This document shows positions 27,152 through 44,835 of a stretch of 64,000 nt of DNA, one piece after another (position 1 is the stretch's first letter; every line of letters begins with the position of its first letter). The notes under the pieces were generated by a model, which had not been told where the DNA came from, made no database searches, and saw only the letters and a list, made by a program, of their open reading frames with translations. The DNA is from Ceratorhiza oryzae-sativae (Eukaryota > Basidiomycota > Agaricomycetes > Cantharellales > Ceratobasidiaceae). The stretch covers positions 124,001-188,000 of the forward strand of contig JARWMV010000027.1 in the NCBI GenBank assembly GCA_030998015.1, written 5' to 3'. Made by a program: the position numbers and the translations under genes.

Positions 27152-27442
27152 TGTTATGACCTGTCAAACAGACATAACAGAGTAACCAAATATTTTATGG
27201 ATTTACAGCATTTTTCCTGAAGCAGAACTAGCCATAAACAAGGTCATGTGACCTTGGCACTTACCCAGCACCTATGGTTGTTACCCTGAACTTGCTCCAG
27301 CATTTCTCTCCCATGTTACCTGGAGTGAGGAGCAAGTTATCATGTGACCTCAGCACTTAAATCATGTGACCCTGGGACCTCATGCAGCTCTATAAGATTT
27401 GGAGCTGCACAAACTTAAGATAAACAATTACCTAACCCATAG

Positions 27443-28178
27443 TGTCGTGACCCTCTGGAGGCTCCCTTGTGGAGCACTTAAGTAGTGGCTGCGTTGACGG
27501 TTTGGTGCTATGCAGTATGTATTGAGTGTTCTAGTTACAGTGTTTGCTATGGTCTATGGTGGTTGACAAGATAAAGCAAGCTGAGGCATCCAGTCTTGCT
27601 TTATCCTCCTTATATATACCTGTGGCGGTGGTGGCTGCGGACGTATTATCTGAGCACACTCCGCAGTAGGTGTAGGTTATGTACAGTACTATGGGTTAGG
27701 TAATTGTTTGTCTTAAGTTTGTGCGGCTCCAAATCTTATAGAGCTGTGCGAGGTCCAAGGGTCATGTGACCTTTTTGGACTTAAGCACGCCGGCGAGGTC
27801 ACGTAACCTCGCTCCAGGTAACTGAAACACTGGAGCGAGTTCAGGGCGGCGCTTAATCGTTAGGTAAGCGCCGAGATCACGTGACAACTCGCTCCTTGCT
27901 CCAGGTAACATGGGAGAGAAACGCTGGAGCGAGTTCAGGGTAACCACTGGCGCTTAATCGTTAGGTAAGCGCCGAGATCATGTGACAACTCGCTCCTCAC
28001 TCCAGGTAACATGGGAGAGAAACGCTGGAGCGAGTTCAGGGTAACCACCGGCGCTTAATCGTTAGGTAAGCGCCAAGATCATGTGATCCTGTTTATGGTT
28101 TGTTCCGCTTCGGGAAAAATGCCATAAATCTGTACAATATTTGGTTGTTAGGTTATGTCTGCTAGGCGGGTCATAACA
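27443..28178 (-). repeat. Element A 3' LTR (736 bp)
   Basis: Begins TGTCGTGAC and ends GTCATAACA on the plus strand. It contains two and a half units of a roughly 101-bp tandem repeat (starting near 27849, 27950 and 28051). Each unit has a gcgcttaatcg...taagcgc hairpin, a TCACGTGAC-type palindrome and a short inverted repeat around gctccaggtaacatgggag. A TATA-like stretch is near 27610. It differs from the 5' LTR partly by repeat content. Confidence 0.93.
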
Positions 28179-28192
28179 TTATCCCCCCCTTT
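28179..28192 (-). other. Polypurine tract of element A
   Basis: On the minus strand a purine run of AAAG6-7 type ends ATAA directly before the 3' LTR. This is the normal plus-strand primer position of an LTR element and confirms that the cargo lies inside the element and not beyond it. Confidence 0.8.
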
Positions 28193-28255: not shown

Positions 28256-28380
28256 ATCTCATATATCGAGGAGGTTAAGGGCGCTGGACTCGAACCAACG
28301 ACCTTCTGTTCAATGTGTAATTGATTAGCTAGGAGATGATGAGTCAGGCTAGACCCCTTAACCTCTACGCTACATGAGAT
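28256..28380 (-). other. tRNA-like hairpin with A- and B-box-like motifs
   Basis: On the minus strand a 7-bp stem (ATCTCAT/ATGAGAT) encloses a perfect 11-bp stem (GAGGTTAAGGG/CCCTTAACCTC, 28271-28281 and 28355-28365). Inside is an ideal TPsiC arm, GTTGG-TTCGAGT-CCAGC (28283-28299), which also matches a pol III B box. TAGCGTAGAGG at 28362-28372 resembles an A box. No register gives a full cloverleaf with a sensible anticodon. It may be a decayed tRNA, a pol III unit or a structural RNA element. It sits between the Rep stop codon and the PPT. Confidence 0.4.
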
Positions 28381-28475
28381 TACTTTCTCCTTGCTTATTT
28401 CCTTGTTTAAGCTTACTTCTCAACACATTGTCTGTGAATAAAACAAGCTTATACAAAGATAATTTATTTTTATTT

Positions 28476-29762
28476 TTAAGGAAAAATAAAAAATGGCTTC
28501 CCTCCTGAGTATACCCAGTCTACGTTTTTGGATACCCATAATTCCCCTTCTTCCCCCTCTATGTCCGTCCAACACTTCATTATGGCCGACCGGCTATTCC
28601 CCAGGATCACTGTCGGCCGTACCTTCATTGACTTCACATGAGCATATCTGCCTGTGAAGTCTGCTTCATACTGGCTCAGGGCTTTGAGCAAGTACTTCCC
28701 GTTTGACTGGACCATGTCATCCAGGATCCAGATGTTGGCGTCCTCCGACAGATTCCCCACGTTCCAGACATTGCACATCCGGCTATGGGAGCCCTTGGAT
28801 CGTGCATACGCCGTCTTCCCAGTTCCTGTTTCGCCTTCAATCACCAGGATGCGATGGTGCACGCCCCTCCCTCTCTTCTCAGCCTCTTCCGCAAACCATC
28901 GGTCCGCCCTGTCGATGTGCACCCGGTCTTCTGGGACTTCCAACTCCACCGGGATTGCAGGCATGCATCCCCGGTCCTCCTTATACATGTACTCAGCATA
29001 TGCTTGTACCGAGTTCCACGTTGTCACCATCTGGAGGGGGCGCAGGCGCTTGAATGCCTGGTAGTATTCTTTTTTTGTCGCTGAGGCAACAATCTCTGCC
29101 CCATCCTCCAGGTCCGCCTCCGCCCTTGACCTTTTCCTGCCCTTTCCCTTCACCAGGATTTCCTCTAACCTCTCCAAGGTCAGGTCCCCCGCCATCAGCT
29201 CCTCTACCTCCTCGCCGTTAGCTCCGACATCCTTCCAGAGGTAGTTGAAAGCCTCCCTTGCAGGGTTGCCTCCTGGTCCGTCCTTGAGGTCCTTCGGCAG
29301 GATGTTGGGGTGTTGCCCCTCGAAGTCCCAGAACCGGGTGTTCTGGGTGTTCCAGCTGCCCTTCCGCTCCTGACTGATGGAGAGGGCGTGGATATGGAGG
29401 GGCCGGGCTGGGTCGTAGTTCGGTTCCTCGGGGTTGTGGCGTTCCACCACTGCCAAAGTCGCCCAATGATTTGGCCGTTGGCGGCAGAATGCCTCGTATC
29501 GGGCGACGAGCCCACTTGAGGGCTGATCGCGTAGCTTCGACCAGGTCAGCAGCACCGCCCTGGTCTGGACGCGGAACCGAGGGGCCGGCGCGGTTTCGGT
29601 CAGCTCTTCGGACCCTCGATCCGTCGGCGTAGGCCGCATAGAAGCGGGTGAGTGGGCTCGGCTTGATACCGAGGGCGCTGGCGATGGCGACACCGACCTC
29701 CGCCCTTCGCTTGATCCGCTTGGCTGGGGTGTTGCCGCGTTCGATCCATTTCCGCTTAGCAT
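28476..29762 (-). CDS. CRESS-DNA-type replication initiator (Rep), geminivirus/genomovirus-like
   Basis: The 428-codon frame has the two-domain layout of Rep proteins of circular ssDNA replicons. HUH endonuclease: motif I AVLLTWSK (residues 69-76), motif II PLHIHALSI (121-129) with the metal-binding HxH, motif III FNYLWKD (172-178) with catalytic Tyr174 and Lys177. A linker with a basic KGKGRKRSR patch follows. SF3 helicase: RADRWFAEEAEKRG (285-298), Walker A GETGTGKT (310-317), Walker B IWILDDM (344-350), motif C VILGN (385-389). Such proteins nick an origin, stay bound to the 5' end and unwind DNA. No internal stop is present, and every catalytic motif is kept. The N-terminal 60 residues in this frame are Ser/Pro-rich; an overlapping frame from 29805 looks more protein-like there. 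It lies inside a retrotransposon, GC-rich against its surroundings. Confidence 0.88.
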   Translation of the reverse strand: MLSGNGSNAATPQPSGSSEGRRSVSPSPAPSVSSRAHSPASMRPTPTDRGSEELTETAPAPRFRVQTRAVLLTWSKLRDQPSSGLVARYEAFCRQRPNHWATLAVVERHNPEEPNYDPARPLHIHALSISQERKGSWNTQNTRFWDFEGQHPNILPKDLKDGPGGNPAREAFNYLWKDVGANGEEVEELMAGDLTLERLEEILVKGKGRKRSRAEADLEDGAEIVASATKKEYYQAFKRLRPLQMVTTWNSVQAYAEYMYKEDRGCMPAIPVELEVPEDRVHIDRADRWFAEEAEKRGRGVHHRILVIEGETGTGKTAYARSKGSHSRMCNVWNVGNLSEDANIWILDDMVQSNGKYLLKALSQYEADFTGRYAHVKSMKVRPTVILGNSRSAIMKCWTDIEGEEGELWVSKNVDWVYSGGKPFFIFP

Positions 29763-29805
29763 CGTTTACAGTTTTAGAGGTATTTGGGGACTGGGAAGAG
29801 AGCAT
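29617..29805 (-). other. Overlapping upstream frame, possible true Rep N-terminus
   Basis: From the ATG at 29805 about 60 residues read as a plausible helical basic segment (NDAKRKWIERG, RIKRRAEVGVAIASALG, then FYAAYADGS). After this the frame turns into low-complexity sequence while the Rep frame becomes the good one. A TATA-like TATATA at about 29839-29845 on the minus strand lies about 35 bp upstream. Either Rep starts here and a one-base change near a GGG (about 29605-29620) separates the frames, or this is a separate short leader frame. No intron of usable size fits. Confidence 0.45.
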
Positions 29806-30305
29806 GAGAGTGCGGATTATCTCGGGCCTTGTGCTTGTCTATATAAGCTGCAAGGTCCGTTTTGATCGTCACATGACTCCGTCTTGCATTTGTTGTGATC
29901 ACATGACCTTGTTTTGATGATGACGCATCTCCGAGGGGTGCCCTCCCATCCGTTCCTCCGCGTCGGCCTTGATCCTCGCTACGCTCGGGGCCTCCGCTCC
30001 CCCACTTCGGTCGGTGCCCCCTCTCCGACCCCTCCGGTAGTTAGGGGATAGCGTATATTCACGTGACTAGGCTAGGTCATGTGATTCCTGTGCTTTGTTG
30101 TTTTGTTTTCTGGCAGGTGGTCATGTGACTAGGCTAGGTCATGTGATTCCTGTGCTTTGTTGTTTGTTTTCTGGCAGATGGTCACGTGTCTGTTGGTGTC
30201 ACCTGACCAGACCTTGTTTTGATGTTTGTGCAAGTTATTGTGTTGCACCATGATTTTTTAATGTTTGTGGTTTTGTTGTTTTCCTTCCTCATCCTGTTCT
30301 TTACT
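29806..30305. promoter_or_regulatory. Divergent intergenic region of the cargo with repeated motifs
   Basis: Lies between the divergently transcribed Rep and Cys-rich genes. It holds two direct tandem units of about 60 bp at 30060-30181 (cgtgactaggctaggtcatg, then tgattcctgtgctttgttg). Several TCAYRTGAC-type palindromes occur (near 29869, 29889, 30059, 30079, 30119, 30139 and 30181). Repeats beside a rep gene recall origin iterons, but no TAATATTAC-like nonanucleotide on a stem-loop was found. The same palindrome type occurs in the LTRs of element A. Confidence 0.5.
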
Positions 30306-30847
30306 ATGCGCGTTATTTCCCTTAACTACAATCCCCTTGACTGCACCTGCTGGTCTCTCCCTGAGGGGGAGTACTGCGCCTACTGTGATGCCGTGTGTGA
30401 CGCCTCCCTTGAAGACTTCTATCAAGGTGTTGGGGACTGGTTCTTCTGTGGGGTGCCAGGTATGTGTGTTCATTCTTCGTCATTCTCACGTAGCTAACTC
30501 ATTCTGTAGAAGAGCGCATCCTCCTTGATGGTCGGGCCCATGAGGCCACCCTTGAGCGTGTCTGGGCGCTCGTTGATCAGGACTACAAGTCCTTTGAGGA
30601 GCGGTCCCACCAGGCCGCTCTTGCTGAATTCTTCGAGGAGGGCTCTGCTCCCTTGTTTGATGAGGCTTCGCCCTTTGCAGCGTCTGGTTCTGGGTGTTTC
30701 CAGAACTACATGGCCGACTTCCCAGGGGGGGAGGCCCCCTGGCTGTTGCCTGAGAACCGGGCTGGTGGTTCTGCGGCCCGTACTACTAGGAAGGATAAGA
30801 AGGCAAAAAAACCCTATACCCGGCCCCTCAAGGGCAAGAAAAAATAG
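30306..30847 (+). CDS. Small Cys-rich spliced cargo protein, unrecognised
   Basis: Two exons, 30306-30459 and 30510-30847, with a 50-bp intron: donor gtatgt, branch-like tagctaac, acceptor tgtag. The splice restores one frame of about 163 codons. Exon 1 has a Cys cluster (CTCWSLPEGEYCAYCDAVCD) that could bind zinc. Exon 2 has an acidic helix-like part (FEERSHQAALAEFFEEG) and a strongly basic tail (TTRKDKKAKKPYTRPLKGKK) suited to nucleic-acid binding or nuclear import. An intron in plus orientation inside a minus-strand retroelement would not be spliced from the genomic RNA, so it survives retrotransposition. No family recognised. Confidence 0.7.
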
Positions 30848-30927: not shown

Positions 30928-31779
30928 TCACAGGGGCTCCGGGGCCAGCAGGGGCACTTCCTCCAAGGCGTCTGCCAGCTCATCCTCCCATTTGGCCCAA
31001 TCCGTTTGGACTCCCTCTTGGGCAGGGTCTGGGGTTGGTTCCTTTATCGTTACTCTTGGCTCCTCCTCCTTCACCACCAGGGACTCCAGGCTTGCCATGA
31101 GGCTCGACATATCTGTGTCGTAACCGTGCGGGTTTGGGCGTACCTTCACCCAGTTACGGAAGTCAGCCAAGTTTGCTTCCTTCAACCTGATGGCAGTAAA
31201 CATTTCATCAGTGGTAGTGGCCTCAAGCAGTCCCACATACGGTGCTGCCGGTGCCAGCTTCCACTGCTCCAACAGTGCCTTTGCCTGGCGCTCCACCTCC
31301 CAGTCCCCTCCGTCTGGTATTTGGCCTGTGGCCCTCCTCTGTTGCCTTGCTGCCTTGGTCACCACGTCGACTGTTGGTCCCACAATATTGTCGACGACAT
31401 ACATTGGTGTTCTTAACAAGGTGTTTCTCGTCGTTGGCTTCCGGCTTCCATGCCATGTCAGGACCCCTAGCCTGGGATCCAGGTACTTGTCATCATCAAT
31501 CCAGTTCCTTTCATCCCTTAACTTCTTTGGGATGTATACTAGGTTAGCCCCTGGCAACAGTTGTTCGGCGTACCTCTGGGCGTCTTCCACACTGGAGCAG
31601 TACATCCCTGGTTTAGGACGATTTTCCCTGCCAGGGTAGGGTGCTGGCCGCCTGGTGGTGGGTGGCTGCCGAAGTGGGGCCACCTGATTTTCGGCAAGTG
31701 GGGTGTAACGGTTGGGATGTGCGACTGGGTGAGTGGCAAAAGGCATGTTTTGGGGTTTCGCAGGTGTGTTGTGGTGCAA
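30928..31779 (-). CDS. Unrecognised 283-residue cargo protein
   Basis: An uninterrupted frame whose ATG lies about 54 bp after the chromodomain stop of element A integrase. It converges with the Cys-rich gene, 80 bp away. The N-terminal 60 residues are Pro-rich and basic (REARLY-type low complexity, for example RQPPTTRRPAPYPGRENRP). The middle looks globular (SSVEDAQRYAEQLLPGANLV, RLGVLTWHGSRKPTTRN). The C-terminus is acidic (EEEPRVTIKEPTPDPAQEG, WAKWEDELADALEEVP). No capsid, protease or envelope signature was seen. It could be a structural or accessory partner of Rep, or an extra ORF native to this retroelement family. Confidence 0.55.
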   Translation of the reverse strand: MHHNTPAKPQNMPFATHPVAHPNRYTPLAENQVAPLRQPPTTRRPAPYPGRENRPKPGMYCSSVEDAQRYAEQLLPGANLVYIPKKLRDERNWIDDDKYLDPRLGVLTWHGSRKPTTRNTLLRTPMYVVDNIVGPTVDVVTKAARQQRRATGQIPDGGDWEVERQAKALLEQWKLAPAAPYVGLLEATTTDEMFTAIRLKEANLADFRNWVKVRPNPHGYDTDMSSLMASLESLVVKEEEPRVTIKEPTPDPAQEGVQTDWAKWEDELADALEEVPLLAPEPL

Positions 31780-31832: not shown

Positions 31833-33102
31833 TTAAAGCTTTCCCGATCCTTGTTTGGTTCTCTTTGTCCTGCCTTTCGAGTCACCTGAGTGCTGACTTG
31901 TCTTGACTGGCATTGGTGCGTCTGGTAAGCGCCTTTGCAAGTCATTTAGAACCTCTTTCATGTCAGCAAACTTGCTGGCACGTTCCATTGTGTCTTCTAT
32001 TGGGTCGTAGCCCTTCCATCTGATTTGGTAAAAAAAGCTTGCCATTCCGCCATTCATAATTTGCAATGTGGTCCACCTCGTATTCCTCCTCTCCTTTTTC
32101 CGTTATGATTGGTGGTGGCTTGGCCTGCCTTCTTCGGAAGTCTTTATCTTCTGTGAATGGCGAGAGGAGATTTACATGGAATACATTGTGTACACGTATA
32201 GTTTTAGGTAGGTCCAGGTGATATGCGTGGGATGAGATCTTTTCTGTGATTTCAAAGGGCCCCCCTTTTCGGTTGTCCAGTTTCTTGGAGGGTCTCTTGG
32301 ACGAGAGGTTTGTTAGGAGCAGCCAAACCTTGTCTCCTACCTTGAATTCCCTCCCTTTCTTCTCCATTTGTTGGTGTAATTCCATTGAGGCTCTTGCCTC
32401 ATCCCATACCTTTTCCATTTGATTACGCATGTTGTCTGCGGCGGGTGCCTCAGATGGTTCTTCTCCCTCTCGGACAACCCATCTTGGGTTTTTTCCATAT
32501 ACTGTTTCAAATGGGGTTTGTCCTGTTGTAGCATTTACGTGGTTGTTATGGCAGAATTCGGCAATGGGTAACCATTTTACCCAATCATCTTGTCTATAAT
32601 TGCAGAAGGTTCTTAAGAACCCTTCTACCCATTGATTTGTCCTTTCCGACAGACCATCTGTTTCTGGATGGAAAGCAGTGGAGAATCTGGGCTTTGTCCC
32701 AATTCCTTTGTATAGGGCCTTTAGGAATTGGCTGTTAAAGGTTGGCCCTCGGTCTGAGACAGTAGTTTCTGGGGTCCCGTGATGTCTCCATACTTCCCTT
32801 ATGAATATTTCTGCCAGTTCTTCTGCATTGGTGCTCTCCAGACATGGTACAAAATGGGCCTGCCGGGAGAAGCGATCTACAACTGTCAAAATACTGTTGT
32901 ACCCTTTTGAGACGGGTAATTTGACAATGAAATCATATGCAACATCTGCCCATGGTTTCCATGGGATTGGTAAAGACTTCAGGGAAGTGCCTTGTTTGTG
33001 TCCTTTGCTTCTTTGACACGTTTCACAAGATTCCACGTATCGGTTTACTTGGGCCTTCATTCCTGGCCAATAGTAATCCCTTGATAGTAATTCTAGTGTT
33101 CG
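31833..33102 (-). pseudogene. Element A integrase, C-terminal part, with chromodomain
   Basis: Continues element A pol after element B. Zinc-binding end (ESCETCQRSKGHK), catalytic core (AYDFIVKLP, SDRGPTFNSQF, SERTNQWVEGFLR) with the D,D,E residues kept, then the GPFEI and HVNLLSPF blocks. The chromodomain start (EYEVDHIANYEWRNG) and the rest (FYQIRWKGYDPIEDTMERAS) are in different frames, separated by an A7 run near 32028-32036. The chromodomain is expected to direct insertion to marked chromatin. The single frame break in a homopolymer may be real or a sequencing error. Confidence 0.9.
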
Positions 33103-33479
33103 TGTCACGAACTGACACGCATATATCCACTCTATAATATTTTCTCGATTTTCTACATTTTATGAGATCATCTTCAAAACATACTTGCCTTTTATGGTAT
33201 ATCTGTGTCATGTGACTCAGGGAATGTTCCGGACCGGTAACCGAGATGTATTTCAACTCTGATGTGAAATTCCGCAGTTCCGCAGTCGCTTCTACTGCTT
33301 CTATCTCTTATCTGTTGTGACTCACTGTACAGACTTGTTTGTTATGATGTGGCTCGTATTATGTATATAAACCAGGTCAAGTTTGCAGAGGACCCCTCAA
33401 GAACTTGACCTCTCGTCGAATACAAGTTCTTTTACTTTTCTTACTATTTTCCTCATCGCCTGACTTGTCGTCGTCGACA
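33103..33479 (+). repeat. Element B 5' LTR
   Basis: Begins TGTCACGAAC and ends GTCGTCGACA. TATA-like TATATAAA at about 33363-33370. About 98.4 percent identical to the 3' LTR by direct reading. Confidence 0.93.
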
Positions 33480-33771
33480 TCAGGTCAAGTTCTTGACAAT
33501 CGTAAGTCTCAGTGTCGTCTGGGATACGTTTGGAACGCCGTCGGCGTCGTCTCGAGATAACTCCTCGTTGCCTTCCCCAATCCCACTCCACCTATCCACA
33601 GTCACGAGATATCGTTGCCCTATACGTGCCTCTGTGAAACCTTGCATAGCCAGGTCCCTCACACGTTGTAACAAGCTTCGGTTCTCTAATCTCTTTCGTC
33701 AACAAGAGGTGGGGTCGCTCATTGCCCTTAAGTAGCTGAGCAACGGAGGTCGCCTTCCTATTCCCATAGAC

Positions 33772-34555
33772 TTGGGAAAGGGTCTATTTTTCTCTTTTAT
33801 CTTGCTCTTGCTCGAGTACGTCTCTGACGGAACGCACGGCCCTCAAGTGGCACAACCTTTTACAGAAGACCAGCGCTGCCGTCTGTGTGGGTGGTTCGGA
33901 CACCTGTCGATCCACTGTTTCACCCTCAACTCGGTCGAAAGTATCCTTGAAGAAGCTGGGCACATTGATTTCAACCAAGTAGTAATCATCAAAGTCCGCC
34001 CCCAAAAAGTCGGACGTGCCCAACAAGCCTTTGTCACCGAGCCAGGCGCCCCTGAGTGCAAAATTTGCCATTGGGCAAACGGAGCCACCTTCCCAGCGCG
34101 CTGCCCTTACTGTCCTAAGAAGGACAAATTCCTTTATTACTACACCATCCCCCGCAACCAGCTATAAGCTGGAGAACCTTGGCCAACAGCTTCTTCGTCA
34201 CCTGCTAAACACTATCGAAAACTTCCAAGACAGGTACCGTTATTACCGGAATAAGTACGAAGAAACCTGTGAAAAACTTCACGAAGCCGAGGCCCGTTGC
34301 GCATACTTAACCGAGCGTTTGCGCGAACACCAGGAGGACTATCTATCCCTCCTCCAAGACCATCTCAGACTAGAAGCTATAGTCCGAGAAACAGTTGAAC
34401 CCCACGAGTACGCCTTCCCCGTCTTCTCAACGCCGTCAGACCTCCCTCACCCTACCTTTCTAAGTGGCACGGGCTCGCCAATTCAGGAAGAAGCACCCCT
34501 TCTGGCAGCCCAAATCAATCCTCCCCAAGGAAGCACTCCTTCGGGATCAAACTAA
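33772..34555 (+). pseudogene. Extra ORF upstream of gag: zinc knuckle plus coiled coil
   Basis: The first frame (33772-34167) has a CCHC knuckle (CRLCGWFGHLSIHC) and a further Cys set (CKICHWANGATFPARCPYC). The second frame (34184-34555) continues with a strong coiled coil (YRNKYEETCEKLHEAEARCA, YLTERLREHQEDYLSLLQDH). The frames abut with a one-base offset at about 34160, so this was probably one protein. It lies between the 5' LTR and gag, where Ty3 elements normally have no gene. A role in RNA binding or particle assembly is possible but unproven. Confidence 0.6.
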
Positions 34556-34765
34556 GCTAAGGAGGGTGGAGCGCCCCTATCGTTGCCAAGACACCAAAAG
34601 TTGGGACTTGGACGATACTTGGTTGAGGTTTGCAGGAATCGGGAACTTTGAAATTTATAGACTTGTGAGGGGGACGGAAATCATTTATTACCAAAACAAC
34701 TCTCAATTCCCTGTACTTCCGTACCGTCTCCGCCGCCTTTAAAATTTTATCAAACCTTCCCTGAA

Positions 34766-36157
34766 ATGGCGTCTCAACCTCCTGCCCCTGCTTGGGCGAA
34801 TATGTCTGATGAAGATAAGGTCATCTATATGCTTCGATCAATGGACGAACTTCGAGAGCGAACCAACAACCTCCAAAATGATATTGGGGACGTCGAACAC
34901 AATAATAAAACGTACACAGATTCACTCGAGGCCAAGCTTACCACAAATCAGACGAAAGTAGATGTGGATGTGGCCGGACTAGCCACCAATGTCAACAACT
35001 TAGTGGGAATGTTAGCCATTCTCCAAACTACTATCACGCGCATTGAGGCGCAAATCAACACCTCCATGGGTGGCTCAGGCGCTGCTCAAGTACTAGCTCC
35101 CACTGGTACAGCTCAACCACAACCAACAGCACCTGCTCCCTCTGGGGGGTCGACTGCAAAAGTAAAGATGGCCGCCCCTCAAAAATTTGATGGCACAAAA
35201 CGGGAAGACGCCATCTCATTCAGAATTGCATGCGCCCGATATATCAATACAAACATGAGTGGGCACTCGGCTGACCAAGTGGTCGCCTTCATCACCTCTT
35301 ACCTCGAAGGGTCAGCAGCTGAATGGGTTAACTCATACGAAGAATTCGAAATTCTCAACCCTGGAACTGCAATCCCCTGGCTTCACGATGCCAATTTATT
35401 CTGGCAAGAATTTACTACCCGATATGGGGACCTGAACCGCACTGAAAATAACTGCGACAAGTGGCGGAAGTTGAAACAATCTAAGACGGTTCAGGACTAC
35501 CTCACCCTATTCAACTTATATTCCACAGGCCTCAACTACAACGATGCCGCCATGCGTGATCAGTTCTATGATGGTCTGTCATCAGATATAACAGATAGCA
35601 TGGTGGCCCAAAACTATGATCCCCGCACAAAGACATTTGCCCAGCTCACACAGCGGGCCCTGGAAATCGACTGCCACCTGATTTCCTTCGGTAGCAAGAG
35701 GACATCTCATGGGGGTAATAAGTCCAGCAGCAACAATGCCTCGACTAGCAGGCCCACAAGTAACCCCCAAAGCGCTCCCCAAAAGGAGAAATTCAAGAAC
35801 GGGGAACGCATATACAAGATTAAAGATGGCAGGGCTGTAAAAGGTCAAATCGTAGCCATCGGTCCCAATGCAAAGGGCTTCACAGTTCCAACCGTCTGTT
35901 ACGATGGCAGTAATGCCAATATACAAGAATCCTTCAAGGACATAAAGAAGGATAACCATCCACCGGCGGTCCCAAAGGCAAAAGATCCAGACGCAATGGA
36001 TCTGGATAGCGCAGGAAAAGGAAAGGGAACGAACACCTGCTATAACTGTGGAGGACGGGGTCATATTGCAGCCAAATGCCCCTCAGCTAAGATGTCAGGA
36101 TACGAGGCAGTGGTCGAGGAGGTAGAAACAACCGACGATGAGTCGGTAAAAGAATGA
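34766..36157 (+). CDS. Element B Gag
   Basis: 463 codons. A heptad-rich N-terminus (LRSMDELRERTNNLQNDIGD) precedes a Retrotrans_gag-like central region (PQKFDGTKREDAISFRIACA, later WRKLKQSKTVQDYLTLFNLY). The C-terminal zinc knuckle is CYNCGGRGHIAAKC near residue 430. The ATG at 34766 follows a short leader. The stop codon (36155-36157) overlaps the next ORF's ATG as ATGA at 36154-36157, implying termination-reinitiation, since no -1 or +1 slip site is evident. Gag forms the virus-like particle and binds element RNA. Confidence 0.92.
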   Translation: MASQPPAPAWANMSDEDKVIYMLRSMDELRERTNNLQNDIGDVEHNNKTYTDSLEAKLTTNQTKVDVDVAGLATNVNNLVGMLAILQTTITRIEAQINTSMGGSGAAQVLAPTGTAQPQPTAPAPSGGSTAKVKMAAPQKFDGTKREDAISFRIACARYINTNMSGHSADQVVAFITSYLEGSAAEWVNSYEEFEILNPGTAIPWLHDANLFWQEFTTRYGDLNRTENNCDKWRKLKQSKTVQDYLTLFNLYSTGLNYNDAAMRDQFYDGLSSDITDSMVAQNYDPRTKTFAQLTQRALEIDCHLISFGSKRTSHGGNKSSSNNASTSRPTSNPQSAPQKEKFKNGERIYKIKDGRAVKGQIVAIGPNAKGFTVPTVCYDGSNANIQESFKDIKKDNHPPAVPKAKDPDAMDLDSAGKGKGTNTCYNCGGRGHIAAKCPSAKMSGYEAVVEEVETTDDESVKE

Positions 36158-37912
36158 GCTCAAACCGTGCCAGGGGGGCGGTCTTGGGCGCTATGTTACA
36201 AAATGCGCATAATGAAAATAAAAATATGGAAATGGAATGTATGTCGTTAGGAAACCAATCACAACTACAGTTTTTCTTTCATGCATTCCCTCTGCGCATA
36301 ACCCCCAAACACAAGTCTGCATATAACATGAAAAAATTCAACGGATGGGCCATGATCGACTCAGGGGCCACGTCAGTATTTATACATGAAGATTTGGTTA
36401 AACAATACCGTGTTCCTACTGTTGCCCTAAAAACACCCAAGAAACTAGGGTAATCGATGGAAGGGAGATAGACTCTGGGTCTGTGACCCATTACTGCACC
36501 TTTGAGTGTGCATTCAAGAGCACCGAGAAATCCTCAGTGCCTATGTTGTGAACGTTGGCAAAAACGATTTAGTCCTGGGCATGTCATGGCTCAAATTCCA
36601 TAACCCCAACATTGATTGGGATGGAAAGACATGAAGTTCAACTCACCAATATGCCTGAAGCATTGCATCACAAAACCCTTGCACGTGCGTGCAAATGAAC
36701 CTAAGGAGCTTCAGCTGGACTCCCTAGACTCCCTCCCAACAAAATATAAAGAGTTCCAGAAAATATTCGCCGAAGAAGACGACGTCCAACCACTACCACC
36801 CCATAGGAAGTGGGATATGGAAATAGATTTAAAACCAGATGCCAAGCCAAGGCATGGTCCCATATATAGTGTGGGTGTCAAGGAAGATGCAGAATTACGC
36901 AAAACCTTGGATCGCCAACTGAAAGCAGGGCATATCAGACCCTCAAGGTCACCAATGGCATCTCCAGTCATATTTGTCAAAAAAAAGAATGGGAAGCTGC
37001 GCATGTGCATTGACTACCGCGGCTAAACGAAATGACTGTCTCCAATGTGTACCCGCTCCCACGCATCAATGATATTGTGGAAACCTTGCGTGGGGCAAAG
37101 ATATTCACCAAGTTTGACCTAAAGTGGGGTTTCAACCTCATACGAATTCGGGAAGGAGACGAATGGAAGGCCGCTTTCAAGACCAAATACGGGCTGTATG
37201 AGCCCTAGTCATGCAATTTGGTCAAAAGAACGCACCAGGAACCTTCATGGCCATGATCCGAGAAGAATTCCAGGACATCGAGGCATTTACGTTGTAATTA
37301 CATGGACGACATATTAGTATTCTCAAAAACCAGGAAGAACACATGAACATGTCAGAGAAGTCCTGCGCCGCTTCAAAAGGCTGGCTATACTGCGCCTGGA
37401 GAAATGCGTTTTTGATGTCACTGAAGTGGACTACCTGGGAATAGTAGTGACTCCCCAGGGAATTAAAGTAGACCCAGCCAAGGTCGAAAAGGCTGTTGAA
37501 TGGCCAACCCCTACCAACCCAACCGAAGTCCTGGAAGGGTTGGGGTTTGCAAATTGGTTGAGGCACTTCATAAAAGACTTTTCGAAAATCACAAGATGTC
37601 TTTATGAACTTGTCAAAAAGGACGTAAAATGGGAATGGACAGAAGAAAGGGATCAAGCATGGAATCTGCTGAAGCAAAAATTAAAAGAAGCCCCCTCCTA
37701 ATTCAGCCAGAGCCCAACAAACCATTCATTTGGAAACCGACGCCTCAGGCTATGCCACAGGCGCTGTATTATTACAATATGGAGAGGACGGAATGCTCCA
37801 CCCAATTTCCTATTACTCCAAGGCAATGGTCCCAGCAGAAGAAACTACGATATTTACAACAAAGAAATGCTGGCAATTATCAAGGCCCTTAAACACTGGC
37901 GTCATTTGTTAG
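36154..37912 (+). pseudogene. Element B protease, RT and RNase H, frame broken
   Basis: Protease with AMIDSGATSVFIHEDLV (aspartic DSGA), RT with [39 protein letters not shown] and a YMDD box at about 37300, then DYLGIVVTPQGIKVDP, and RNase H with ETDASGYATGAVL. The frame changes at least six times (near 36453, 36560, 37022, 37206, 37295 and 37700-37730). Each checked change is one missing base in or next to a short homopolymer. With LTRs this similar, so many independent deletions would be surprising, so sequencing or assembly error is a serious alternative. Confidence 0.9.
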
Positions 37913-39669
37913 AAGGGGCTGAACACCCAGTAAACATTGTCTGTGACCACAAGAATTTGGAGTATTGGAAGACAAATCGGCCACTGAACGGCCGGGTCAC
38001 ACGGTGGCATGAGTTCTTATCCAGGTTCGAATTCAAGATTTTATATGTTGAAGGGGCAAAGAATGGCAGGGCAGACATACTCTCTAGGCTGTCAAGACAC
38101 ATCCCTAAAGAGGGGGGTGAGAGCCAAGCTCTGCTTGCACAAAACCAATTTTTGGAATTAAAATCTCTGTGGTTACAAGCAATCACACCAGACCATGACC
38201 TGGAACAACTCATTAGGGACACTATCCCAGGGGATGAGCACCTGTCAAAAGTGCTAAAAGCCCTAGATGACAATGAGAAGGTCAAAGATTGGGAATGGGA
38301 TGAAGGACTCTTACGACACAAGGGCAGAATCTACGTCCCAAATAACAAAGAACTTCGCAAACTGGTCATCGAAAGCCGTCACGATAACCCAGCAGCAGGA
38401 CACCCAGGACAGTTCAGAACATATGAACTGTTAAATCGCAAGTACACGTGGTTATCAATGAAAAAATCAGTCAACGAATATGTCACACACTGCGAGTCAT
38501 GCATCAGGAACAAGCACAGCAACCAAGTTCCCCCAGGGCTCTTAAACCCAATACCTGCACCAGAAAAACCTTGGGAGGAAATTACTTATGATCTGATCAC
38601 CGGGCTACCCCTGTCAGAGGGATTTGATGCCATATTTACAGTTGTCAACCGCCTGACAAAAATGGTCCACTTTATTCCATGTCAATCGGAAGCCAGTGCT
38701 ATGGATTGCGCCAACCTGTTCCTAACATATGTATGGAAACTCCATGGGTTACCACGGAAAACAATCTCAGACCGTGGCCCCAACTTCGCATCCAAATTCT
38801 TAAGGCACTTATACAAACGACTGGATATAAAACCCTCCTACTCCACAGCATACCACCCTCAGACAGATGGCCAGTCCGAACGGGCCAACCAAGTAGTGGA
38901 AGGATACATCAGACACTATGTATCAGATAGACAAGATGACTGGGTCTCGCTCCTACCATTAGCTGAATTTGCTTACAATAATGGTGTCAACGCCTCAACT
39001 GGCAAATCACCATTCTTTGCAAACTACGGTTTCCACCCAAGGCTAGCAGTCGGGGACAGGGAGGAACCAGAACTCCCTTTAGCGGACAACCATGCAGAAT
39101 GGCTCCAAAAGGGCCATGACGAACTTAAGGCAGCCCTGGAAATAGCAAACCAGAGAATCAAGGAATACTATGACCAGAAGCATCGGACCCCTGAAGCTAT
39201 TAAGGTTGGAGACAAAGTCTGGCTTGATACCAAAAACATACGGACACAGCAGGCCTCCAGGAAACTGGCCCACAAAAGAGTTGGACCATTCAAGGTGGTA
39301 GCACAACATGGCACACATGCCTACAAACTGGACCTACCGATAACCATGAAAATACACCCAGTGTTTCATGTCTCACTTCTGACCAAATATAAAGACGACC
39401 CCTATGGCCGTCAGGTTCCCCCACCACCACCTGTGGTAACTCCTGAAGGGGAAGAAGAATTCGAAGTGGAACAGATCATAAAGTCACGATACAACAAAAG
39501 ATCTAACATCTTTGAATACTATGTCAAGTGGCTTGGCTACGACGAGCGACAATGGTTAACCTACGATGACCTGGTGAACGCGCCAGAACTCATCGCCGAC
39601 TATGTCAAGTCGCACCCAAAAGCACCTCAGGACCCCCGTGCCTTGAAGGGGGGAAGTGTCACGAACTGA
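37867..39669 (+). CDS. Element B integrase with chromodomain
   Basis: 600 codons open after the RNase H end. Zinc domain (GHPGQFRTYELL, CESCIRNKHSNQ), catalytic D in TYDLITGLP (about 240), D in SDRGPNFASKF (about 301), E in SERANQVVE (about 337), the GPFKVV and HPVFHVSLL blocks, and a chromodomain at about 531-588 (FEVEQIIKSRYN, YYVKWLGYDERQWL). It inserts cDNA into chromatin. It is part of a polyprotein and has no start of its own. Degenerate copies of the same gene lie at 47377-48800 and 50105-50954. Confidence 0.92.
   Translation: MLAIIKALKHWRHLLEGAEHPVNIVCDHKNLEYWKTNRPLNGRVTRWHEFLSRFEFKILYVEGAKNGRADILSRLSRHIPKEGGESQALLAQNQFLELKSLWLQAITPDHDLEQLIRDTIPGDEHLSKVLKALDDNEKVKDWEWDEGLLRHKGRIYVPNNKELRKLVIESRHDNPAAGHPGQFRTYELLNRKYTWLSMKKSVNEYVTHCESCIRNKHSNQVPPGLLNPIPAPEKPWEEITYDLITGLPLSEGFDAIFTVVNRLTKMVHFIPCQSEASAMDCANLFLTYVWKLHGLPRKTISDRGPNFASKFLRHLYKRLDIKPSYSTAYHPQTDGQSERANQVVEGYIRHYVSDRQDDWVSLLPLAEFAYNNGVNASTGKSPFFANYGFHPRLAVGDREEPELPLADNHAEWLQKGHDELKAALEIANQRIKEYYDQKHRTPEAIKVGDKVWLDTKNIRTQQASRKLAHKRVGPFKVVAQHGTHAYKLDLPITMKIHPVFHVSLLTKYKDDPYGRQVPPPPPVVTPEGEEEFEVEQIIKSRYNKRSNIFEYYVKWLGYDERQWLTYDDLVNAPELIADYVKSHPKAPQDPRALKGGSVTN
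39644..39656 (+). other. Polypurine tract of element B
   Basis: Purine run GAAGGGGGGAAG directly before the 3' LTR, the expected plus-strand primer. Confidence 0.8.
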
Positions 39670-40033
39670 CACGCATATATCCACTCTATAATATTTTCTC
39701 GATTTTCTACATTTTATGAGATCATCTTCAAAACATACTTGCCTTTTATGGTATATCTGTGTCATGTGACTCAGGGAATGTTCCGGACCAGTAACCGAGA
39801 TGTATTTCAACTCCAATGTGAAATTCCGCAGTTCCGCAGTCGCTTCTACTGCTTCTATCTCTTATCTGTCGTGACTCACTGTACAGACTTGTTTGTTATG
39901 ATGTGGCTCGTATTATGTATATAAACCAGGTCAAGTTCGCAGAGGACCCCTCAAGAACTTGACCTCTCGTCGAATACAAGTTCTTTTACTTTTCTTACTA
40001 TTTTCCTCGTCGCCTGACTTGTCGTCGTCGACA
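39657..40033 (+). repeat. Element B 3' LTR
   Basis: 377 bp, same ends as the 5' LTR. Differences are about six transitions, four of them at CpG/TpG-type positions. Confidence 0.93.
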
Positions 40034-42183
40034 GTTCAGGCTTGTCCCTGATGACCTGCCACTGGGGCGTCATGGCACTCCTCAAGGAGACTCAACCTCA
40101 AGTCCTTGTCATCTGGGATGTAGAGCCTATCGTCATACCTTAATAGGCCCTCCTTCATTTCATACCGTCTAAATTCCTTCTGTACTGAGGGCGGTAGTTG
40201 TTCCTTATTTGCCACACTCAGCCTTAAGGATCTGATAGATTCATCTTCTTCCTGAGCTTCTTTAAGCTCTTCCCAGAAATCCCCCTGTACTTCTGCCATG
40301 AAACCTATGAACCTTTCTTCTGGAATCATGATCTGTGGTTCCATAGGGGTATCCCCATGGTCGCTCCTTCTGGAAAGGGCATCTGGCTTCTGTGAGAGTT
40401 TCCCTGGCCTGTACACAATCTGAAAATTGAAGGGTGCCAGAGTGAGATACCATCTGGCATGCCTTCTATTCCACATCTGGGCATTTTGCCAGTACTGGAG
40501 GTTCCTATGGTCAGTGTATATCACAATGGGTTCCTCTGTCCCTTCTAAGTATAACCTCCAGTGCTCTAAGGACCTAACAATTGCAAGTAACTCCTTGTCG
40601 TAGGTGTCATAATTTTTCTCTGGTGGGGTGAAGCTCTTTGATAGGAAGGCAATTGGATGCAATCGGTTGTCATCACCCTTTTGGCTTAGTACCGCCCCCA
40701 TGGCCACTCCTGAGGCGTCTGTTTCCAGTATGTATGGCCTGCTTGGGTTTGGGTGGATCAGGACCGGTTCTCTTGCTACTGCTTCTTTGATGGCTTCAAA
40801 TGCTTCCTGTTGTTTTCTTTCCCACAGGAATTTGACATCTTTTTGGGTGAGATCTGTGAGGGGTTTGGCTAAGGTGCTAAACTTCCCTATCCACCTTCTA
40901 TAGAACCCCACGAAGCCTAGGAAGGCTTGGACTTCTTTTACTGTGTTAGGTTCTGGCCATTCTAGAACTGCTTTTACCTTTTCCTTTTCCATCGATATCC
41001 CTTCTGGGGATATGACAATTCCAATGAAGCTTACCTCCTTCACGAAGAACTGACACTTGTGTGGTTTGAGGAAGAGGTGGTTTTCCCTCATTCTTCTTAA
41101 CACTTCCCTGACATGTTGTACGTGTTCTTCCCTGTTTCTGGAAAACACTAGTACATCGTCCATGTAGATTACCACATAATCGTCTATTATGTCACGGAAC
41201 TTTTCCATCATGAACCTGGTAAAGGTTCTTGGTCCTTCTTTTACTCCGAATGGCATGACCAAGCATTCAAACTGGCCTTCTCCTGTCCTGAAAGCTGTTT
41301 TCCATTCGTCTCCCTCTTTTACCCTGATGTTGTTGAACCCCCATCGAACATCCATTTTTGAATAGATGGTTGCATCCTTCAGTCTCTCAATCAATTCTAT
41401 CTGGATTGGAAGTGGAAACCTGTCTGGCTTGGTGATGTCATTCATCTTACGGTAGTCGACTACCAACCTAAGCCCTCCATCTGCTTTGTTCACATAGAAA
41501 CAGGGTGCAGCTACAACTGACTGGCTGGGCCTTATTTTCCTGTTCCTCAGTTCCTCCTCTAGGTACTCCCTGAGCGCCTTTGTTTCTGCTGGTGACATAC
41601 TGTACCTCTTTGCAGGCTTTGGCAGCTCCGCTCCCTCGATCAGGTCCATTTTGAAGTCTAGGTTACCTCGGTGGGGTGGAAGTTCTCGGAAACCTTCTTC
41701 CCCAAATAGGTCTTCAAAATCCCTAAATTCTTCTGGGATTTGTAGGCTTTCACTTGCTGCCCTTGCCTTGATTTCGTCTGGGTATGAGATGGTAAGGTCT
41801 TTCCAATCTATGATAGGTTCTGCTTCTTCAAGCCATTCTTTCCCTAGGACTATGTCGGTGTCACCTAGGGTCATTACATAAAGGGAGCATTTTAGTGTCT
41901 TCCCTTCCACTTCGATGTTTAGGTCTGCCCTTTCTTCTATGGCATCCTTGATTTCATTTCCATCAATGGCCACAATTGATTTCTTGTGTTTGAGGGGAGT
42001 GGTTGGAATCCCTTTTTCCCTTGAATAGGCCTTATCGATGAAGTTGGTTGAAGATCCTGAGTCAATCAGCGTTTTAGCTGGTTCCATGATTCCCTCTACC
42101 GTAGTGTATATTATTGATTGATTACTAGACTTCTTGAGGTAACATACATCTGCGGTAGGGGTTATATTGGGGTCCTCCAACAT
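40034..42183 (-). CDS. Element A protease, RT, RNase H and start of integrase
   Basis: 715 uninterrupted codons from the ATG at 42183. Aspartic protease (TLIDSGSSTNFIDKAY), RT (LRLVVDYRKMNDITKPDRFP, KMDVRWGFNNIRVKEGDEWK, CLVMPFGVKEGP, VIYMDDVLVFSRN), RNase H (LETDASGVAMGAVLSQ, TYDKELLAIV, TDHRNLQYW) and the integrase zinc-domain start (CHDAPVAGHQGQ), where element B interrupts. Its ATG lies about 18 bp beyond the gag stop on the minus strand. This part looks functional; integrase is split by element B. Confidence 0.93.
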
Positions 42184-42200
42184 GGAAGTGGTAGGACCAA

Positions 42201-42575
42201 TTAGTTTTCCAACTCAGAGCTGCTTTCTTCCTCAACTTGTCTGCTGGCCTTCCCTTGTATCTTAGCTTTGTCGTAGGTCCACTGGCCTCGGCACTCCTTC
42301 AGGACATGCCCTGATTTACCGCATTTGATACAGAGTCCTTCTTTCCTTTGCCTGTCCTTTTCACTGTTTGGTATCCTTACCATGTTGTTGGTTTGGGTAT
42401 TCCCCTGTTTGCTGCTGGTCCCTAAAGGCTTGTTTCCCCCTTGTTTGTATTTCGCTGGTGCCCAGGTTGAATTTGATGAGTTGCTGGTCCTTGTATTCAT
42501 TTTCTGGTTTGCAAACTGCATGTCATCCATTTTGCAGGCAAAGTCAATTAATTGATCTAGGGTATTGATGGACCT
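42201..42575 (-). pseudogene. Element A Gag nucleocapsid tail, shifted frame
   Basis: Carries the zinc knuckle CIKCGKSGHVLKEC and the gag C-terminus, stop near 42201. It is in a different frame from the main gag frame; the switch occurs near 42560-42575, where the main frame meets TAG. It is most likely one original gag gene with a one-base change, or a frameshift-dependent extension. Confidence 0.8.
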
Positions 42576-44035
42576 TCAGCCTCATTTGCCAGTACTTCAA
42601 TCCTTAAGATCTCTTGTCGTACTTCAGGTTTTAACCCTTCCCTGAATTGGTCCTTGAGTGCTTCCTGGTTCCAGTCTACCTCTTGGATCAGGATCCGGAA
42701 TTGGGTAGCATAATCCAATGCGCTCTTGGTCTGTGTTAATTTCCTTAGTTTCCAGATGGTCTTTTCCTTTATGACTGGGTCATTAAAAGCATCCAGGAAT
42801 CCCTTCCTGAAATCCTTCCAGGATGCAAGAATACCTGTGTGTTCGCCTACTAGTAGTTTCCGGCGGTAGGGTTGTGCCCAGTTTGCTGCTTCCCCGTCCT
42901 CCATGTTCATTAGCACAGCAGATATCTTTTTTCGGTCATCAAAGGCTGACTCATCATAGTCAGCAAAGAAAAGTTCCATGCTGATTATGAAGTTCTCTGC
43001 TTCCTTCCCCTTTTTCCCATTAAATTTGCTGGGTCTCCCTAGTCTCGCCTCCTTAGGAGTGTGGTTTGCAGCAAGGGTAGGTTGGTTTGCTTGGGATGGA
43101 GGTTCCGTTCGGGGTCTTATTGTGGACTCAGCCTGGAAGGTTCTTCCCAGAAAAGGTGTTCGTACTGGGGAGGCTGAGGGGGATCGTGAGGGGCTTCCTA
43201 TGACCACCCTAGTTCTTCCCCTGGTTTCTTCTGTCCTTTCCCTTGGCCTTCCTGCTTCAGTTGTTTTCCGGAGCTCATTTCCTAGATCGGTTACCTGTTG
43301 TTCTAGTGCGATTAGGATCTCCCCTGTGTTTTCGGTTTTCTTCTCTAAGCTTTCAAGCTTTCGCTCTTGCATTCCCAGTACCCGGTTTATTTCCATGGAG
43401 ATGTCCTTTAATTCTTTTATCAGGTTCCCCATTTCTGCTTTCAGGTTGTCCTGGTTCTTTGCCACATAGAGGACATTTTTGTTGGATGTTTCCATAGACC
43501 TTACCATCCAGTCCACGTTTCCTTCTTGTCGGGTTAGTGATATTTGACACTGACTTATACCCGAGATTGCCCTTTCTAGTTCCCTATGATTTTTGTCTCT
43601 AAGTTCCTTGAGCCCCGCCCTGATGGCTGTGGCAATGGTGTGAATAGGGTTGGCAGTGGCTATGGTTCCGGGACCTGGCTGGGGTTGTGTCCTTGCCTCT
43701 TCCGCCAAGGCTGTGCCTTGTTCGTATATGGTTTGGGTCATATCTTCTACCTCATCCCTCTCTGGATTTGAGATATCTTCTGGGTCTGGATTTATCAGGT
43801 GAGTTGGTGGTTGAGGGCTGCGGAGTGGTATTCCCCCTATTTCCCCTCCCAAGATGGGGGCCCAAGTGGGGTTGGGTTGAGCCACTGGTTGTGGGTTTTG
43901 TGGCAACCCCCCTGGCATTCCTTGGAGGGTCTCATCTGGGTTACCTTCCGCCTCTGGGGAAGCAATGGGTTTGGGTGATTGTGGCCTACTATTTGCCACT
44001 CTGCTTTGAGATCGAGTTTGTGGTCTCTGTGACAT
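42557..44035 (-). CDS. Element A Gag, main part
   Basis: 492 codons from the ATG at 44035, 121 bp after the 5' LTR. A Pro/Gln-rich N-terminus leads to a long coiled coil (about residues 190-270, for example ELKDISMEINRVLGMQERKL). A Retrotrans_gag-type domain follows (PSKFNGKKGKEAENFIISME, WKDFRKGFLDAFND, KLTQTKSALDYATQFRILIQ). It would form the particle shell. Confidence 0.9.
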   Translation of the reverse strand: MSQRPQTRSQSRVANSRPQSPKPIASPEAEGNPDETLQGMPGGLPQNPQPVAQPNPTWAPILGGEIGGIPLRSPQPPTHLINPDPEDISNPERDEVEDMTQTIYEQGTALAEEARTQPQPGPGTIATANPIHTIATAIRAGLKELRDKNHRELERAISGISQCQISLTRQEGNVDWMVRSMETSNKNVLYVAKNQDNLKAEMGNLIKELKDISMEINRVLGMQERKLESLEKKTENTGEILIALEQQVTDLGNELRKTTEAGRPRERTEETRGRTRVVIGSPSRSPSASPVRTPFLGRTFQAESTIRPRTEPPSQANQPTLAANHTPKEARLGRPSKFNGKKGKEAENFIISMELFFADYDESAFDDRKKISAVLMNMEDGEAANWAQPYRRKLLVGEHTGILASWKDFRKGFLDAFNDPVIKEKTIWKLRKLTQTKSALDYATQFRILIQEVDWNQEALKDQFREGLKPEVRQEILRIEVLANEAEGPSIP

Positions 44036-44156
44036 AGTTTCTTTGTGTTCTCTTATGTATCACAGGAGTTAGCTGGTTTTCTCGTGTACTCAGCCCTTAG
44101 TATCTGTGCAGTATACTTATGTTCACCACTAGTTAAGTTAAGAGCTTGCTTTATAA

Positions 44157-44835
44157 TGTCGTGACCCTCTGGAGGCTCCCTTGTGGAGCACTTAAGTAGT
44201 GGCTGCGTTGACAGTTTGGTGCTATGCAGTATGTATTGAGTGTTCTAGTTACAGTGTTTGCTATGGTCTATGGTGGTTGACGAGATAAAGCAAGCTGAGG
44301 CATCCAGTCTTGCTTTATCCTCCTTATATATACCTGTGGCGGCAGTGGCTGCGGACGTATTATCTAAGCACACTCCGCAGTAGGTGTAGGTTATGTACAG
44401 TACTATGGGTTAGGTCATTGTTTGTCTTAAGTTTGTGCGGCTCTGAATCTTATAGAGCCGCGCGAGGTCCAAGGGTCATGTGACCTTTTTGGACTTAAGC
44501 ACCCGGCGCTTAATCGCTGAATAAGCGCCGAGGTCACGTGACAACTCGCTCCTCGCTCCAGGTAACATGGGAGAGAAACGCTGGAGCGAGTTCAGGGTAA
44601 CCACTGGCGCTTAATCGTTAGGTAAGCGCCGAGATCACGTGACAACTCGCTCCTCGCTCCAGGTAACATGGGAGAGAAACGCTGGAGCGAGTTCAGGGTA
44701 ACCACCGGCGCTTAATCGTTAGGTAAGCGCCGAGATCACGTGATCCTGTTTATGGTTTGTTCCGCTTCAGGAAAAATGCCATAAATCTGTACAATATTTG
44801 GTTGTTAGGTTATGTCTGCTAGGCGGGTCATAACA
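44157..44835 (-). repeat. Element A 5' LTR (679 bp)
   Basis: Same ends as the 3' LTR. Tandem units start near 44506, 44606 and 44706 with the gcgcttaatcg/taagcgc hairpin and TCACGTGAC palindromes. It lacks a partial extra unit found in the 3' LTR near 27800. No convincing primer-binding site was identified next to it. Confidence 0.93.

Follow-up and report, generated by a model that had tools for sequence, protein, structure and literature searches.

A 64,000-nucleotide stretch of the Ceratorhiza oryzae-sativae genome (assembly GCA_030998015.1, contig JARWMV010000027.1, positions 124,001 to 188,000 of the forward strand; this whole stretch is termed the window) holds an open reading frame (ORF) resembling the replication initiator (Rep) of circular single-stranded DNA (ssDNA) replicons. 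The ORF lies inside element A, a Ty3 chromovirus on the minus strand that runs from 44835 to 27443, as delimited by a pair of long terminal repeats (LTRs) and a target-site duplication. The question raised by this locus is whether a gene for DNA replication has become a working part of an element that spreads by RNA. A previous reading of the letters without database searches (the sequence-only reading) had described the Rep as cargo of the Ty3 element and named plain capture without function as the alternative, which selection and fixed position now make unlikely. With high confidence, the Rep is a fixed and selectively maintained module of element A.

The fixed position was established across the whole assembly (48.8 Mb, 253 contigs). 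The genome searches scored the best 98 of 254, 112 of 1164, 142 of 234, 150 of 194, 150 of 195, and 150 of 193 candidates, so that the resulting counts are lower bounds. At least 165 distinct Rep copies were found, including 136 with both N- and C-terminal parts, and 29 of the 99 Rep copies listed are full-length and free of stops (counted by eye). In all 20 loci fetched over 8.3 kb, ORF-X, ORF-Y, an intergenic region, Rep, a tRNA-like block, and the LTR follow one another in identical order, with the integrase ahead of this module in 19; the remaining stretch (L048) begins inside ORF-X and carries two cassettes, and single copies among the 20 have parts deleted or interrupted. Among integrase matches of at least 80% identity, 91 of 97 are followed within 14 kb by a same-strand Rep, which lies within 3.2 kb in 78 and at 3.2-14 kb in 13, the latter taken as interrupted copies. 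A same-strand Rep likewise lies within 14 kb downstream of 137 of 142 ORF-X matches, and more distant integrase matches (n = 15) include 10 with and 5 without Rep. The claim that the Rep is a regular part of the element is thereby confirmed, and the two observations that were to count against it did not materialize: 6 of the 97 close integrases show no Rep, and the block, placed alike in 20 of 20 loci, does not present itself as a single chance insertion with borders of its own.

A second family, with an integrase ~72% identical, also carries Rep. One of its integrases (C238:1008491) has no listed Rep; because it is 93.8% identical to a Rep-bearing integrase (C20), this absence looks like the loss from a single copy, and an older Rep-less state was rejected as its explanation. 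The date of Rep gain cannot be read from the integrase tree.

Selection was assessed in the 30 best-scoring loci, a nonrandom sample in which pairwise ratios are not independent. For Rep, the ratio of nonsynonymous to synonymous divergence (dN/dS) falls with distance from 0.41 (dS <0.05) through 0.32 and 0.26 to 0.10 (dS 0.35-0.5), with this last value resting on one contrast of 4 versus 26 copies. When every codon that overlaps a CpG in at least one copy is excluded, the ratio starts at 0.22 and declines to 0.05; dN/dS against a copy from a divergent subfamily (L051) is 0.19, and against the oldest copy compared (L052) synonymous sites are saturated. Judged from these codon comparisons, the fall with distance is the pattern expected when active copies are under selection and neutral decay then sets in. 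Many Rep copies have stops, which are mostly TGA, as expected from decay at CGA, and 29 of 30 copies retain the full set of ten catalytic residues. By their dN/dS, the copies do not display the neutral evolution that the sequence-only reading had named as counting against it. In the same loci at small distances, dN/dS is 0.21-0.22 for the integrase and 0.13-0.16 for pol. By their ratios at dS >0.2, ORF-X (0.18-0.29) and ORF-Y (0.12-0.17; 27 loci) likewise evolve as proteins.

The Rep ORF (28476..29762, minus strand; 428 codons, stop-free) can be assigned with considerable confidence, on its motifs, to a divergent Rep of the CRESS (circular Rep-encoding ssDNA) type, of gemini- or genomovirus-like class. 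According to the accessible part of a published account, genomovirus Reps carry the nuclease motifs uuTYxQ, xHxHx, and YxxK and the helicase motifs GxxxxGKT, uuDDu, and uxxN, with a geminivirus Rep sequence (GRS) between motifs II and III (PMC11052389). The motifs of the Rep ORF follow the published order: LLTW at residues 71-74, HIH at 123-125, HPNI at 151-154, and YLWK at 174-177, and then, of superfamily 3 (SF3) helicase type, GETGTGKT at 310-317, ILDDM at 346-350, and LGN (within ILGN) at 387-389. All fit the definitions with the exception of motif I. Motifs II and III read LHIHA and YLWK, and H123, H125, Y174, and K177 are kept in 30 of 30 copies, as is the HPN of FWDFEGQHPNI, which occupies the GRS place between motifs II and III and which may resemble the GRS of known viruses. 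One of the 30 copies has lost a Walker A glycine. The earlier statement that all HUH endonuclease and SF3 motifs are kept holds for HIH, YLWK, Walker A and B, and motif C; in motif I, W stands for Y. A seven-motif pattern, written with this Rep in view and with W allowed in motif I, matches the Rep and none of 200000 shuffles of it; 11 of 28 database relatives longer than 380 amino acids also match, and the nonmatching ones are partly truncated or re-spliced gene models. The Pfam family Gemini_AL1_M, the geminivirus domain that precedes the helicase, recurs as a weak match in 10 of 30 members (best E 0.001; 19.5 bits versus a cut-off of 24). Where coordinates were shown, in eight proteins, this match covers nearly the whole profile and stops at Walker A. 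Gemini_AL1 matches 1 of 30 members (E 0.23).

Database searches with phmmer and with a profile, the latter scoring 7997 candidates, returned 50 and 77 proteins; all of those with an organism name are from Ceratobasidium, the remainder being unnamed, so that the comparison with known Reps proposed by the sequence-only reading found named relatives in this genus and reached no known CRESS Rep. The relatives P0001-P0008 have 427-442 amino acids and 68-76% identity and come from three Ceratobasidium assemblies, and one Rep-type protein cluster holds 38 member sequences. No credible Rep match was obtained in the PDB by sequence or in PHROGs and NCBIfam, and viral contigs gave none, whether compared by alignment or scanned with a degenerate Walker A pattern. 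In tblastn, matches to plasmids (for which P0009, a relative, was the query) and to phages came only at E ~9; one such phage stretch was inspected and dropped. A PF00799 scan of the fungus's own genome found no match, and its controls were equally silent, making it uninformative.

The first ATG after a TATATA box (29840..29845, minus strand), a candidate Rep promoter that was read in the sequence upstream of both start codons and is identical in 11 of the 12 aligned rows shown, is at 29805 and lies in a different frame from the Rep ORF. Over 29763-29580, the dN/dS pooled between lineages is lowest in this upstream frame (0.28, versus 0.76 for the Rep frame and 1.46 for the third); from position 29579 onward, it is the Rep frame that is constrained (0.22 versus 1.07). 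The upstream frame shows no clear constraint over its initial 14 codons (0.65), and its first 75 codons contain a stop in 8 of 30 copies. Some gene models from Ceratobasidium AG-Ba, P0007 and P0011 among them, also contain the peptide AAYADGSRVRRAD, and two natural copies (C143:14525 and C186:4307; open frame 449) have both parts in one frame. Given the selected upstream frame (29580..29805, minus strand), the probable true Rep N-terminus, and these one-frame copies, the working Rep probably has its start at 29805 and passes into the Rep frame around 29580, through either a translational shift or a processing step. Neither this second, selected frame nor the nesting of another Ty3 element (element B) in element A pol had been part of the sequence-only reading.

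In the main family, a conserved hairpin lies between the divergent ORF-Y and Rep, as in the layout of circular ssDNA replicons, making it a candidate origin or nick site (30015..30047, minus strand). The block CCCCT-AACTACCGG-AGGGG-TCGGAGAGGGGGCA, including its G-rich tail, is kept, while some lineages carry replaced sequence on its ORF-Y side. At up to 3 mismatches, the 22-nt hairpin core has 166 genomic matches (reversed control, 0), and 96 of the 100 listed have a same-strand Rep downstream within 6 kb. A pattern with a free loop of 7-14 nt gives 138 exact matches (reversed control, 0); among the ~100 places listed, the loop is AACTACCGG or near it, GAACTACCGG (a second copy ~260 nt off), or TATACTGG, which occurs with the same stem at C7:196502, 433 nt upstream of a divergent Rep copy (C7:195632). 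With C/T and G/A changes allowed, the hairpin is present in 30 of 30 loci, and in 5 of these it occurs twice per intergenic region, ~260 nt apart. The whole intergenic region folds with a z score of -4. The begomovirus word TAATATTACCGG resembles TAACTACCGG, a likeness that may serve as a lead. Beside the hairpin are two tandem repeats with TCACRTGA-type palindromes (30059..30170), identified by pattern counts, which were considered as iterons and rejected: GTCACRTGAY occurs 17 times in the window, twice in the intergenic region and 7 times in the element A LTRs, and because the palindrome is commoner in LTRs, transcription factor sites are the more likely interpretation.

Several of these results, together with some further ones, weigh against a Rep that acts at this hairpin for the element. 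Motif I is LLTWSK, retaining the hydrophobic pair and T, with W for Y in 30 of 30 copies. No Rep-related Pfam family reaches its cut-off in members of the Rep family, unrelated families score alike (Jiv90, 0.0048; P53_TAD, 0.0052), and the profile search reached no known CRESS Rep. A structural model of the HUH domain had pLDDT 54 and pTM 0.49, with no Rep fold among the rows listed (Foldseek against PDB and BFVD, VIA-align), and a full-length model from the 30-sequence alignment (pLDDT 35) was not used; predictions this weak say nothing either way on the HUH fold. The nonanucleotide TAATATTAC is found nowhere in the window, the loop being AACTACCGG, and the lone hairpin folds no better than shuffles. 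The second-family Reps C12, C14:25975, C20, C30, and C90 have no hairpin pattern match in the listed contigs, and a looser pattern with C/T and G/A freedom (163 matches; control, 0) still gives none there. Compared at the same small dS, the integrase (0.22) and pol (0.16) are under tighter constraint than Rep (0.41), and the strongest constraint on Rep comes from the single contrast mentioned above. Six close integrases lack a Rep downstream. Finally, the window copy of element A is dead: with element B nested in pol, the chromodomain frameshifted, and a stop in pol, it cannot be autonomous.

Building on the observed position, copy number, selection, catalytic residues, and main-family hairpin, the explanation favored here, somewhat more likely than not, is that a captured replication cassette is now a selected module whose Rep would copy unintegrated element DNA via the hairpin. 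In this view, a lineage of Ty3 chromoviruses in a Ceratobasidium-like fungus would have acquired a gemini- or genomovirus-like ssDNA replicon cassette comprising Rep, a hairpin origin, and a divergent gene. Selected as a module located between integrase and 3' LTR, this cassette would since have been passed on and multiplied together with the element. Spread by RNA, reverse transcription, and integration is the established cycle of the Ty3 family; element A would follow it, with the cassette traveling in genomic RNA and the antisense ORF-Y intron surviving in an orientation in which it would not be spliced. Rep would most likely be made from its own intergenic promoter and enter the nucleus, where its tyrosine may nick the hairpin in double-stranded DNA copies of the element and its helicase may unwind them, such that unintegrated, probably circular element DNA could be copied further. 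Circles of LTR elements are common by-products, and the Rep would thus have a natural substrate; the product may be more element DNA, a helper step for integration, or regulation.

The individual steps carry likelihoods of their own. Rep-driven nicking or unwinding of DNA at this hairpin is put at a little under an even chance, and rolling-circle amplification of element circles is considered rather unlikely, both estimates having been lowered because the second family has no hairpin pattern match. A link between two replication modes is a possibility drawn from hairpin conservation, the divergent gene order, and selection; the specific proposal that, after reverse transcription, Rep nicks the hairpin of a circle and amplifies it for transcription or integration is, similarly, doubtful. 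If true, an RNA-copying and a DNA-copying replicon would be fused in one selected element. Rolling-circle replicons that encode a Rep are classed apart from LTR retrotransposons in their mode of replication. A chromovirus that retains an apparently complete Rep, a conserved hairpin, and a divergent partner gene under purifying selection, in >100 copies and, at the protein level, in several Ceratobasidium assemblies, makes the use of both modes testable.

The strongest competitor, tentative yet not far-fetched, is that the Rep is selected for something other than rolling-circle replication, serving as a nickase or helicase in complementary DNA processing, opening of integration sites, evasion of silencing, or regulation of the element. 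Any function that the element carries would be compatible with the selection and position seen, and the hairpin pattern was not found beside the second-family Reps in the listed contigs. Precedents of a kind exist, so far as the accessible text of the reports indicates, in plant elements with sense and antisense extra ORFs of unknown role between pol and the 3' LTR (PMC7264820) and in the nuclease ORF3s of bdelloid elements (PMC5408684). Against this competitor, the main family preserves the hairpin, whose loop hardly varies, immediately upstream of Rep even where the ORF-Y side has been replaced, and every Rep motif is retained.

That the cassette is instead an independent small replicon with the retrotransposon as its vehicle, so that Rep, hairpin, and ORF-Y leave as a circle of their own, is improbable. 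The divergent order of ORF-Y, hairpin, and Rep is an ambisense replicon layout, two hairpins ~260 nt apart are found in 5 of 30 loci, and 27 of the 165 Rep copies are without ORF-X or integrase in the lists. However, the lists are capped, and one of these 27, C164 (the locus L034), does have integrase, ORF-X, and LTRs; the cassette adjoins the 3' LTR of the element in all 20 loci read over 8.3 kb, and no cassette-only insertion was seen. Still less probable is an unrelated P-loop ATPase with chance motifs rather than an HUH Rep. General ATPase families match more members than Gemini_AL1_M does, albeit more weakly and below threshold (nSTAND3 in 18 and AAA_22 in 14 of 30), and fold prediction gave no Rep; against this stand the seven motifs in Rep order, not reproduced by shuffling, the Gemini_AL1_M match that stops at Walker A in eight proteins, and the HPN of all 30 copies. 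The idea of an inert captured viral gene passively amplified with the element, for which the broken pol of the window copy and the mostly TGA stops of many copies might speak, is the least probable of all and largely contradicted by a dN/dS that falls with distance to 0.10 (0.05 without CpG codons) at the widest contrast, by the retention of the catalytic residues in 29 of the 30, and by the relatives of 427-442 amino acids and 68-76% identity in three Ceratobasidium assemblies.

Judged by titles and the beginnings of abstracts, no paper listed by searches of the open PubMed Central (PMC) literature describes a Rep in an LTR retrotransposon. The nearest fungal parallel is the geminivirus-like transposons of Tuber melanosporum, likewise with a multicopy gemini-type Rep in a mobile element; in the portion of the report available, these have terminal inverted repeats, transposase ORFs, an interrupted Rep ORF, and no obvious target duplication (Liu et al. 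2011; PMC3198968). Unlike that terminal inverted repeat transposon, element A is an LTR retrotransposon in which 29 of 99 listed Reps are full-length and stop-free and in which the Rep is under selection. The novelty here is a chromovirus whose replication module is new and selected, a gemini-like Rep in the Tuber transposon being already known. With the Reps of Geminiviridae and Genomoviridae, as far as the available parts of the sources describe them, element A shares motifs II and III, the GRS position, Walker A and B, and motif C, and with these viruses and related plasmids it shares the intergenic hairpin and the divergent second gene (PMC11052389, PMC6668415). It differs from the viruses in having LLTW for uuTY, no TAATATTAC, no recognized capsid gene, and no sequence match above cut-off. 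Other LTR retrotransposons with additional ORFs include Grande, RIRE2, and Retand (PMC7264820) and the bdelloid Vesta and Juno (PMC5408684); their extra genes are env-like, unknown, or encode a DEDDy exonuclease or a GDSL esterase, with no Rep mentioned in the accessible sections. Fungal Ty3 chromoviruses have the LTRs, 5-bp duplication, reverse transcriptase, RNase H, and integrase that are also found in element A, together with a chromodomain, which in element A falls just short of its Pfam cut-off; element A departs from them by the ORF-X/ORF-Y/hairpin/Rep module (~3.3 kb). Helitrons move by their own HUH enzyme, with a superfamily 1 helicase. They share with element A an HUH nuclease and helicase in a eukaryotic transposon (Helitrons are named in the part of PMC6668415 available), in contrast to which element A has an LTR retrotransposon as vehicle and SF3-type helicase motifs.

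The layout of element A in the window, all on the minus strand unless noted, substantiates the LTR element that the sequence-only reading had defined by its LTRs, polypurine tract, and target-site duplication. LTR comparison delimited a 5' LTR of 679 nt (44157..44835) and a 3' LTR of 736 nt (27443..28178), which are 96.76% identical over 679 sites with 57 gap columns (20 transitions, 2 transversions), and comparison of the flanks revealed the 5-bp duplication CTATG on either side (44836..44840 to the left of the element and 27438..27442 to the right). The gag region (42200..44050) was assigned by position and sister-locus matches, not by Pfam. It is followed by the reverse transcriptase-RNase H part of pol (40035..42140), with one stop in the window copy and domains seen in a sister copy; by element B (33103..40033, plus strand; borders approximate, from locus comparison), which interrupts pol; and by the C-terminal part of the integrase (31963..33110), identified by sequence and domain comparison, with its chromodomain frameshifted in the window copy. 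In the sister copy L050, the reverse transcriptase, RNase H, and integrase zinc-binding domains exceed their Pfam cut-offs, the integrase core reaches 29.5 bits (cut-off 32.6), and the chromodomain PF00385 behind the integrase has E 2.5e-5 and 24.5 bits, 0.6 bits short of its cut-off of 25.1. After the chromodomain come ORF-X, ORF-Y on the opposite strand, the intergenic region, Rep, a block with boxes like those of an RNA polymerase III (pol III) promoter, a G-rich polypurine tract read in the sequence (28179..28191), and the adjoining 3' LTR.

ORF-X (30928..31746; 272 amino acids) was recognized by ORF reading and dN/dS, and ORF-Y (30306..30847, plus strand, antisense to element A; exons 30306-30459 and 30510-30847) by dN/dS and its intron pattern. 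ORF-Y encodes 163 amino acids with a basic C-terminus and has a 50-nt GT-AG intron, the pattern of which is present in 23 of 30 loci with lengths of 48, 50, and 52, so frame-breaking indels are tolerated there; of the 7 other loci, L029 does not cover the intron and 6 are diverged or interrupted at this place. Neither ORF has a Pfam match or is recognized as a capsid gene, and a protein database search with ORF-X gave no match. The tRNA-like block before the 3' LTR (28275..28410), found by blastn in 20 of 20 loci, has A-box- and B-box-like sequences of a pol III promoter; searched anywhere in the locus, an exact B box occurs in 20 of 30 loci and an exact A box in 21. ARAGORN found no tRNA in the block, and there was no Rfam tRNA match.

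Among sister copies, L034 and L043 have the gag-pol middle deleted and retain two LTRs and the part from ORF-X to Rep, possibly representing nonautonomous forms that keep the Rep; L043 has a 5-bp duplication (CTCAC) and L034 shows none. In L050, L041, and L044, segments of a single copy differ in age (L050 versus the window: integrase 98%, Rep 90%), pointing to probable recombination between element lineages. At L033 and L048, an LTR is directly followed by a truncated internal part, an arrangement considered as a tandem product of rolling-circle copying and rejected, since nested insertion into another copy explains it: the LTR ends at its terminus, with the left borders unread.

Other mobile elements surround element A. 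Its flanks (27150-27440 and 44838-45060) are inverted LTR-like sequence, so it seems to have been inserted into an older related repeat. The nested element B has a gag ORF at 34766-36157, and its LTRs share 98% identity across the 300 nt that were compared. A long interspersed nuclear element (LINE)-type element at 17366-21439 (plus strand) has an Exo_endo_phos_2 endonuclease ORF followed by an 845-amino-acid ORF with reverse transcriptase and RNase H. The interval 45060-45600 reads, by its motif, like a putative Tc1/mariner transposase relic. Further Ty3 integrase remains lie at 47634-48575 (minus strand) and 50107-50697 (plus strand), the first with 89.5% protein identity to the integrase of element B.

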